DNA from: Haloarcula salina
GTDB lineage: Archaea > Halobacteriota > Halobacteria > Halobacteriales > Haloarculaceae
Assembly: GCF_010119195.1 (NCBI RefSeq)
Contig: NZ_WRXL01000003.1
Coordinates: 359,639 to 423,638, forward strand
Direction: 5' to 3'
DNA: 64,000 bases
Shown: piece after piece, positions 48,831 through 51,137 of the stretch
How the letters are laid out: the number at the start of each line of letters is the position of its first letter
Numbering within the stretch: the first letter of the stretch is position 1
The notes under the pieces: generated by a model
What the model saw: only the letters and a program-made list of their open reading frames with translations
What the model was told of the DNA's origin: nothing
The model's database searches: none
Translations under genes and position numbers: made by a program

Positions 48831-51137
48831 ATGACCGACGGGATCCGCGTTCTCCACGTCGACGACGACCCGGATTTCACCGACGTGGCCGCCACCTTCC
48901 TCGAACGGGAGCGTGATTCTATCACCGTCGAGACGGAGGCGAGCGCCGCCGCCGGGCTCGAACGAGTCAGGGACGGGGAGTTCGACTGCGTGGTCTCGGA
49001 CTACGACATGCCGGGTCGCAACGGCGTCGAGTTCCTGGAATCCGTTCGCGAGCGCTCCCCCGACCTGCCGTTCGTCCTCTTCACTGGAAAGGGGAGCGAG
49101 GCGGTCGCGAGCGAGGCCATCTCGGCGGGCGTCACCGACTACCTCCAGAAGGCCCCCGGCTCCGACCAGTACGCGCTGCTGGCGAACAAGGTCGTCAACG
49201 CCGTCGAGCGAGCGCGCGCCGAGCGGGCCCGCGAGCGCCACCTCGAAGCGATCGAGACCGCGCGGGAGGGCATCAGCATCCTCGACGAGAGCGGGGAGTT
49301 CATCTACGTCAACGACGCCTACGCCGGCCTCTACGGCTACGACCCCGCGGACCTGCTCGGAGAGCACTGGGAAGTGCTCTATCGCGACGAGGACATCGAT
49401 CGCGTCTGGGACGAGATCATCCCGCAAATCGACGAGACCGGGTACTGGCACGGCGAGACGATCGGCGTTCGCGCCGACGGGAGCACCTTCGTCGAGGACC
49501 ACACGCTCGCGAGGACCGACCACGACGAACTCGTCTGCACCGTCAGGGACGCGTCCGATCGCAGGCGGCGCGAGCAGGCGATCGAGGAACTCCACGCCAC
49601 CGCCAGGGCGTTCCTGCAGGCCACGACCGAAGACGAAATCGCGCGGATCACGGTCGAGTCGGCCCGCGACATCCTCGACATGCCGGCCAACGCGGTCCAC
49701 TTCGCCGACGGTGACGACGGCGACTTGCGGCCGGTCGCCTGGACCGATCGGGTCGAAGACATCGTCGGGACGCCGCCGGTGATCGGTCCCGGCGACGGGC
49801 TCGCGTGGGAGGCCTTCGAGGCGGGCGAGCCGCGGGTCCACGACGACGTGTCGACGAATCCCGGCCGGTTCAACTCGGAGACGGACGTGCGAAGCGAGCT
49901 CCTCCTCCCGCTCGACGACCACGGCGTCCTCCTCGTCGGGTCCTGCGAGGCGACCGCGTTCGACGAGACGGACGCGTCCCTCGCTCGGATGCTCGCGGTC
50001 CACGCGACGACGGCGCTCGACCGCCTCGACCGCGAGCGCGAACTCCGCGCGGAGCGAGCGTTCGTCGATCAGGCGCTCGACACGCTCGACGACCTGTTCT
50101 ACGTCGTCGGCCCGGAGGGCGACATCCGTCGGTGGAACGACCGCGTGCCCGCGGTCACGGGATACGCCGACGCCGAACTCGCGGCCCTGTCGGTCACCGA
50201 CCTCTTTCCGGACGACCAGGTCGACGCGGTCGTCGCGGCGGTCGACGAAGCGCTCGAAACAGGGCGGACGACCGTCGAAGCGGACCTGCGCACCGCCGAC
50301 GGCGAGCGGTTCCCCTACGAGTTCACCGGCGCGCGCCTGACCGACCCCGAGGGCGACCGCTCCGGAGTCGTCGGCATCGGCCGGGACATCACCCACCGAA
50401 AAGCGCGCGAAGAGCGGCTCGCGCGGCAGAACGAACGGCTCGACGAGTTCACCAGCGTCGTCAGCCACGACCTCCGGAACCCGCTGGCGCTCGCCTCCGG
50501 CCACCTCGACCTCGCCCGCGAGGAGTACGACAGCGAGCACCTGGAAACCGTGGCGGACGCCCACGATCGGATGCGGTCGCTCATCGAGGACCTCCTGACG
50601 TTCGCGCGGGAGGGCGAGTCCGCGACCGAGGTCGAACCGGTCTCGCTCGGAGACGCGGCCGCCGACTGCTGGGAGAGCGTCGGGACGGACGCCGCGACGC
50701 TCGCCGTCGCGACCGACCGCCGGATCCGCGCCGACCCGGCGAAGCTCCGGCGACTCCTCGAGAACCTCTTTCGAAATACCGTCGAACACGGTTCGACGAA
50801 TCCCCGCTCGCACACTCGCGAGGACGCCGTGGAGCATGGCTCCACGAGCAGTCAGAACGCAACGCGTTCTGACGATGCCGTCGAACGCGCCGGCGACGTG
50901 ACCGTGACCGTCGGCGACGCGGACGGCGGCTTCTACGTGGCCGACGACGGGCCGGGCATCCCGGCCGACGAGCGCGACCGGGTGTTCGAGACGCGATACT
51001 CCGGCGACGCCGACGGCACCGGCTTCGGTCTCGCTATCGTCCGCCGCATCGCCGACGACCACGGCTGGACGGTCTCCGTCACCGAGAGCGAGGACGGCGG
51101 CGCGCGCTTCGAGATCACGGGCGTCGGGACGGCCTGA
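48831..51137 (+). CDS. Hybrid histidine kinase: receiver-PAS-GAF-PAS-HisKA-HATPase
   Basis: The 768-residue protein has an N-terminal receiver (residues 1-120, phosphoacceptor Asp57 in SDYDMPGRNG and K near 87 in FTGKG), a PAS domain (about 140-245), a GAF domain (about 255-395), a second PAS (about 405-525), a HisKA H-box SVVSHDLRNPLALASGHL (about 542) and a HATPase region (NLFRNTVEH, DDGPGIP, GTGFGLAIVRR). No membrane helix is seen. Residues about 655-685 hold an insertion in the N-box region where DNA palindromes encode two VEHGST copies. Downstream outputs are unknown. Confidence 0.92.
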   Translation: MTDGIRVLHVDDDPDFTDVAATFLERERDSITVETEASAAAGLERVRDGEFDCVVSDYDMPGRNGVEFLESVRERSPDLPFVLFTGKGSEAVASEAISAGVTDYLQKAPGSDQYALLANKVVNAVERARAERARERHLEAIETAREGISILDESGEFIYVNDAYAGLYGYDPADLLGEHWEVLYRDEDIDRVWDEIIPQIDETGYWHGETIGVRADGSTFVEDHTLARTDHDELVCTVRDASDRRRREQAIEELHATARAFLQATTEDEIARITVESARDILDMPANAVHFADGDDGDLRPVAWTDRVEDIVGTPPVIGPGDGLAWEAFEAGEPRVHDDVSTNPGRFNSETDVRSELLLPLDDHGVLLVGSCEATAFDETDASLARMLAVHATTALDRLDRERELRAERAFVDQALDTLDDLFYVVGPEGDIRRWNDRVPAVTGYADAELAALSVTDLFPDDQVDAVVAAVDEALETGRTTVEADLRTADGERFPYEFTGARLTDPEGDRSGVVGIGRDITHRKAREERLARQNERLDEFTSVVSHDLRNPLALASGHLDLAREEYDSEHLETVADAHDRMRSLIEDLLTFAREGESATEVEPVSLGDAAADCWESVGTDAATLAVATDRRIRADPAKLRRLLENLFRNTVEHGSTNPRSHTREDAVEHGSTSSQNATRSDDAVERAGDVTVTVGDADGGFYVADDGPGIPADERDRVFETRYSGDADGTGFGLAIVRRIADDHGWTVSVTESEDGGARFEITGVGTA
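50780..50873 (+). repeat. Coding palindromic insertion in the kinase gene (three hairpins)
   Basis: Within the kinase ATPase domain, 50780-50798 (CGTCGAAC-ACG-GTTCGACG), 50828-50846 (CGTGGAGC-ATG-GCTCCACG) and 50851-50873 (GTCAGAACGC-AAC-GCGTTCTGAC) are perfect hairpins of 8, 8 and 10 base pairs, each with a 3-base loop. The first two encode the same peptide VEHGST. The reading frame is kept. The segment lengthens the loop after the conserved NLFRNTVEH box. Confidence 0.8.

Follow-up and report, generated by a model that had tools for sequence, protein, structure and literature searches.

Tandem two-hairpin palindromes in a haloarchaeal histidine kinase gene are probable copies of a mobile coding element widespread in Halobacteria

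The palindromic array in the N-box of a Haloarcula salina histidine kinase is, with a probability of about 0.8, formed by a short non-autonomous mobile DNA element present in two tandem copies. The element is composed of two adjacent hairpins, A of 7-8 bp and B of 6-10 bp, and belongs to a family that is widespread in Halobacteria. The window denotes here the whole 64-kb stretch of DNA analysed. Two covariance models were used: R1, trained on kinase units only, and R2, built from 31 generic copies that lie mostly outside kinases. The kinase array was the only match of R2 in the window (46 bits at 50823-50879, unit 2).

According to Pfam, the domain order of the host kinase is receiver, PAS, GAF, PAS, HisKA and HATPase_c, and the two tandem units sit in its N-box with the reading frame remaining open (Table 1). 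The original prediction, made from the letters of the window, held that three short-loop hairpins lie within about 95 bases, that the first two encode one peptide and that the insertion keeps the frame. This was borne out: the three hairpins are exact, and VEHGST is encoded by hairpin A of both units with different codons. Its delimitation of the element was correct for the hairpins, but the units are longer than these (48 and 51 nt) and hairpin B of unit 1 had been missed. The window contains seven hairpins of at least 8 bp with a 3-nt loop, three of them in the kinase array. Three such hairpins within 95 nt were found in none of 2,000 synonymous-codon shuffles of the kinase ORF, which rules out their chance origin; the probability of a perfect VEHGST hairpin is 0.12 given the codon usage of this ORF. 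For comparison with the AVERA sequence at the end of the array, empty N-boxes read AVEHGGTDVTV or AVDHGGTDVTV (L144, L145, L148). In an AlphaFold2 model based on a 15-sequence alignment, domain residues 140-172, which make up the insert, link the N-box helix with the following strand; their pLDDT of about 35 is very low, and the insert is predicted to be disordered. The overall confidence of the domain model is moderate (pTM 0.55) and its fold matches sensor kinases, e.g. CpxA.

Table 1. Features of the kinase gene and its hairpin array, in window positions.
Feature	Position	Strand	Basis
Host gene, haloarchaeal hybrid sensor histidine kinase, 768 aa	48831..51137	+	ORF, Pfam, genus homologues
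Unit 1, 48 nt, codes for TVEHGSTNPRSHTRED	50778..50825	+	Sequence; limits from exact 48-nt non-kinase insertions
Unit 1 hairpin A, CGTCGAACACGGTTCGACG, 8 bp, 3-nt loop, codes for VEHGST	50780..50798	+	
Unit 1 hairpin B, 48-type, larger loop, slightly decayed; imperfect arms 50802-50807 with 50818-50823, 5/6 pairs	50802..50823	+	48-nt-type column pairs
Unit 2, 51 nt, codes for AVEHGSTSSQNATRSDD	50826..50876	+	Sequence, R2 covariance model
Unit 2 hairpin A, CGTGGAGCATGGCTCCACG, 8 bp, 3-nt loop, codes for VEHGST	50828..50846	+	
Unit 2 hairpin B, GTCAGAACGCAACGCGTTCTGAC, 10 bp, 3-nt loop	50851..50873	+	Exact hairpin
Third AVEHG start, degenerate (AVERA), leading back into the kinase beta strand	50877..50891	+	Sequence

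Similar inserts in further haloarchaeal kinases, anticipated by the original prediction, were searched for and are common. Searched for as a degenerate DNA pattern, VEHG[S/T]T matched 303 of 391 Halobacteria genomes, while the reversed control pattern matched almost none, and 106 of the 118 distinct matches sit in kinase N-boxes or their tandem units. About ten isolated matches outside kinases, e.g. in enolase-superfamily-like ORFs (L027, L060), were set aside, as they look like chance or ordinary conserved sequence. In the 106 copies the palindrome is kept beyond the demands of the peptide: the Val-Ser wobble positions are complementary in 90 copies against 52 expected, the silent Glu-Gly positions in 79 against 46 expected, and the serine codon is TCN in 106/106. 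Among 32 aligned units of the 45-nt type, 96.7% of cells were paired compared with 83.7% after shuffling, a value reached by none of 500 shuffles. Two-sided changes numbered 60, compared with 18 after shuffling, and slid-partner controls gave a pairing of at most 44%. Residue-by-residue conservation without palindromes, which was named beforehand as the refuting outcome, is not what we observed, since hairpin B varies in both its bases and its encoded residues (the 45-nt type has 24 distinct perfect stems, the 48-nt type 15) and compensatory changes preserve the palindrome.

Kinase arrays hold from one to four or more units. For one pair of paralogous kinases of the window genome, the arrays are 89% identical and the flanks 62-74%. 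Within the genus, each homologue of the window kinase carries a single decayed insert; other kinases have empty N-boxes. Several arrays deviate from the common arrangement. In the minus-strand array L032 (G225), one A hairpin is inverted among VEHGST units and reads VEPCST, as if flipped. In the 5' part of L179, a kinase carries two units in the linker between its receiver and PAS domains; the second seems to lack about 7 nt, and the resulting frameshift makes the gene appear broken at this point. In five MAG loci (L161, L170, L187, L191, L208) a third unit type with its own hairpin, coding for GSENASEPSVANAPED, is interspersed with VEHGST units, and in Halorussus aquaticus the spacer DVHQTESDTAHQNAQRSED, with one substitution, is common to two kinases (L181, L204) as a genome-specific unit.

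Both models also match non-kinase genes, which rules out a repeat confined to kinases. The 80 R1 places retrieved from genomes of a phylum-wide sample (an outlier outside Halobacteria included) were classed by reading the flanking ORFs: 45 are kinase arrays, 24 lie in frame within non-kinase genes and the remaining 11 are intergenic or unclear. The generic element reads (GAC) AGCGCGGAGC GAA GCTCCGCGAGCA GTCGGAC GCA GTCCGAC GAC and codes for DSAERSSASSRTQSDD; its stem A differs from that of the kinase form. Its covariation is stronger than that of kinase units, with 96.6% pairing compared with 78.7% in shuffles, 87 two-sided changes against 24 and a score of 0.527 against 0.178 (31 copies). Among the best 30 R2 loci, 28 are frame-0 insertions in non-kinase ORFs and one lies in a kinase; for the remaining one (L447) the ORF was not fully extracted and the protein shows the insert. 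Named by NCBIfam, with several partial ORFs below the curated cut-off, the hosts include HisC, GatD, MetX, ValS, formate dehydrogenase alpha, acetate-CoA ligase (Acs), PurA, Mre11, PurC, PurD, CobN, a PINA-type ATPase, mercury reductase, a carboxyltransferase and a nitrite-reductase-like protein. Unit lengths of 45, 48 or 51 nt are multiples of three, the retained frame has no stop and is identical across all in-frame insertions inspected, and it yields a hydrophilic, acidic and probably disordered peptide (generic DSAERSSASSRTQSGDD, kinase form NSVEHGSTSSRTQSDD); the other forward frames in the inspected loci give basic, arginine-rich peptides. The window genome (G000) has units in three kinases and, in DapE-like, LeuS and TrpA genes (L401, L402, L403), shorter or decayed A-hairpin inserts (GSEARSAS, GSEAQSAS) of nearly one stem. 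In another genome (G006), four identical REP-like two-hairpin copies of 58-60 nt with different flanks (L373-L376) lie apparently at gene ends or in intergenic DNA.

Comparison with empty orthologues showed that the insertions are exact. A Halorussus CoA-ligase-like gene reads GTCGGGGAAGAC[48 nt]GAGGAGCGC where its congener has GTCGGGGAAGACCCGGAGCGC, and orthologues of a Natrinema protein carry two, one or no units. In the PurA genes of two congeners, 90.3% identical, filled and empty sites are reciprocal: at one site exactly 45 nt follow GAC (CTGGAC[45]GGCGAG versus CTCGACGGAGAG), and at the second the insertion is 57 nt, of which 12 nt are an acidic tail. HMG-CoA reductase aligned to PDB 6hr7 has a single clean 16-residue gap at the insert, and PurD shows an alignment gap at the same kind of place. 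GAC stands on both sides of the PurA insert, 3 nt being too short to call a target duplication, one of the marks of a MITE; at the inspected insertions we saw neither a target duplication longer than this ambiguous GAC nor terminal repeats.

The family spans nearly the whole class. R1 matched 257 of 292 Halobacteria genomes and, in the phylum-wide sample, 27/33 Halobacteria against 1/164 other genomes; R2 matched 279/292 Halobacteria genomes and 73 of 77 genera. The sole R1 match outside Halobacteria (L387, G548), from an assembly 84% complete, has a perfect A stem and an unrelated second hairpin and could be due to chance, contamination or transfer. No element was found in phages and no exact B-hairpin consensus in viral contigs; matches on plasmids were confined to four haloarchaeal plasmids, in annotated histidine kinases or a PAS protein. 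Spacers of different genes are more alike within a genome (identity 0.789) than between genomes (0.675; 0/500 permutations). This homogeneity of units is clear in Halorussus and the MAG group, weak in genus g1 (44/500) and absent in Haloferax (195/500).

Several other origins were weighed. Serial hairpins in kinase mRNA might have been selected to slow ribosomes or to bind protein, and the strong compensatory evolution within coding DNA, the position of the arrays in the ATP-binding domain, with a structural half on either side, and the folding of the 151-nt region, better than its shuffles (z = -3.5), are consistent with such a role. Across all stem pairs, however, G.U mismatches number 63 and A.C mismatches 90; this lack of a preference for G.U points to a palindrome of DNA, not to an RNA helix, and rules out selection for RNA structure as the sole cause. 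Moreover, such hairpins are also found in unrelated enzymes and in DNA between genes, and homologues retain decayed inserts, leaving an RNA-level function very unlikely. A mobile DNA palindrome fits better than a kinase-specific RNA function, given this mismatch spectrum, the unit variants shared by paralogues and the decay of old copies. We consider it highly improbable that the arrays arose by pure slippage, i.e. by tandem duplication of N-box codons with quasi-palindrome template switching restoring the palindromes and no mobile element involved: this is contradicted outside kinases by exact unit insertions in genes without an N-box whose orthologues are empty, and the generic form has a different stem A, even if the units repeat the native AVEHG motif in varying copy number, the hairpin arms are identical inverted copies and the VEPCST hairpin of L032 is inverted. 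Part of the kinase spread could nevertheless be tandem duplication plus gene conversion. The least credible proposal is that acidic disordered protein loops were selected for salt adaptation with the palindrome as a by-product of codon choice; the hydrophilic, acidic peptide read in one frame agrees with it, but the covariation of the stems in DNA, silent wobble positions included, contradicts it.

A special case of the mobile element, which we find unlikely, is a minimal PATE (palindrome-associated transposable element), in which the near-terminal hairpins of an IS200/IS605-type transposon would have fused and TnpA would move the product as single-stranded DNA. As described in PMC3119063, Haloquadratum PATEs have near-terminal palindromes and no target duplication, and one core-deleted form is 52 bp long; the insertion site here is also a short oligonucleotide (GAC). 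Nevertheless, the number of Y1_Tnp per genome was not associated with that of elements (Spearman 0.15, p = 0.12), several genomes without TnpA carry about 20 copies (20 candidates were scored per genome, so that values near 20 are lower bounds), and the R2 hairpins are absent from the ends of 30 haloarchaeal TnpA loci. On these grounds a resident IS200/IS605 TnpA was rejected as the mover, as were identity with an IS605-linked PATE, given the lack of shared hairpins at these 30 loci, and with a GTAG REP moved by RAYT (Y1 transposase), given the missing association.

As a mobile DNA palindrome, the element would move or be copied as folded single-stranded DNA, either by an enzyme that recognises hairpins or through recombination or template switching at GAC-rich sites. 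Among the many paralogous kinases, the kinase subfamily may spread through similarity to the conserved N-box (GCCGTCGAACACGG); insertion is not random, as this site is far over-represented (45/80 matches of the kinase-trained model). This over-representation, the weak homogeneity of units within single genera, the lack of a target duplication beyond GAC and the failure of Y1 transposases to account for the movement speak against the mobile element. The codon-multiple length, the absence of stops and the hydrophilic, acidic peptide imply that insertion into surface loops is tolerated. Such loop inserts would be near-neutral for the host protein, with one acidic frame tolerated, and an acidic proteome would plausibly purge the basic, arginine-rich frames. 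With slightly less than even odds, we suggest that Halobacteria harbour, nearly class-wide, minimal two-hairpin mobile elements of 45-51 bp that are moved by a novel enzyme, are adapted to acidic coding genes by codon-multiple length and one tolerated frame, and include a branch homing to the histidine-kinase N-box.

Among known systems, the closest in kind are the Rickettsia palindromic elements (RPEs; Ogata et al. 2000, 2002) and the Wolbachia WPE, as cited in PMC2996958 and PMC2229807. The likeness to Rickettsia proposed in the original prediction is upheld by precise in-frame insertions, empty orthologues and many other host genes: with a palindrome beyond protein constraint and insertions at unrelated and intergenic sites, this is a protein-coding palindromic element of the RPE kind. 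RPEs, too, are palindromic in-frame insertions in many unrelated genes including housekeeping enzymes, occur also in intergenic DNA and typically lie in unstructured segments. They measure 105-146 bp (RPE-4 and RPE-6 are shorter), in contrast to the 45-51 bp of the haloarchaeal element, which differs further in its two tandem hairpins, single frame, archaeal hosts and subfamily on one kinase motif. The element is less unusual for Archaea than first supposed, as a coding palindromic element has been reported in Methanocaldococcus jannaschii (Suyama 2005, cited in PMC2996958 and PMC2229807), known, on these accounts, from that one methanogen, and the kinase units represent one subfamily within a broader element family. 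Like GTAG and CGTC REPs and REP dimers (Di Nocera et al. 2013, PMC3733652), it has short hairpins, dimers, a short end tag and intergenic as well as intragenic copies. The bacterial CGTC REPs have no known transposase, stems of 8-9 bp, loops of 4-5 nt, a CCA tail and mostly head-to-head dimers, whereas here loops are 3 nt, stems 6-10 bp, no CCA tail was seen and copies lie mostly in coding DNA. Identity with CGTC REPs was therefore rejected on the 3-nt loops and 7-bp B stems (45-nt type), only the end being CGTC-like, with CGAC on the other strand. PARCELs share tandem palindromic coding repeats but consist of 25-residue amphipathic repeats in membrane-type ORFs and are reported absent from Archaea (PMC2996958); the hydrophilic units of 15-17 residues exclude identity with them. 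Haloquadratum PATEs, SMRs and MITEs are likewise transposase-free palindromic repeats of haloarchaea without target duplication, but SMRs are about 80-110 bp long and often lie within other mobile elements, and the accessible part of PMC3119063 does not mention in-frame coding insertions. Perfect palindromes inside functional coding genes also occur in Nematomorpha mitochondria, where the arms code for conserved protein sequence instead of inserted loops and are not dispersed (PMC6649704).

Our search of the open-access literature, with subscription papers outside its scope, found no earlier description of such elements in haloarchaea. Most selfish palindromes described within protein genes come from Rickettsia and Wolbachia, and genome decay is their usual explanation. 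The haloarchaeal family sits in enzymes (PurA, ValS, HMG-CoA reductase, Mre11) of free-living, genetically tractable archaea, so the movement of coding palindromes and their possible creation of new protein loops are directly testable in Haloferax. Many haloarchaeal insertion loops, the kinase VEHGST repeats among them, may be derived from elements and not be functional motifs, which calls for caution among annotators and structural biologists.
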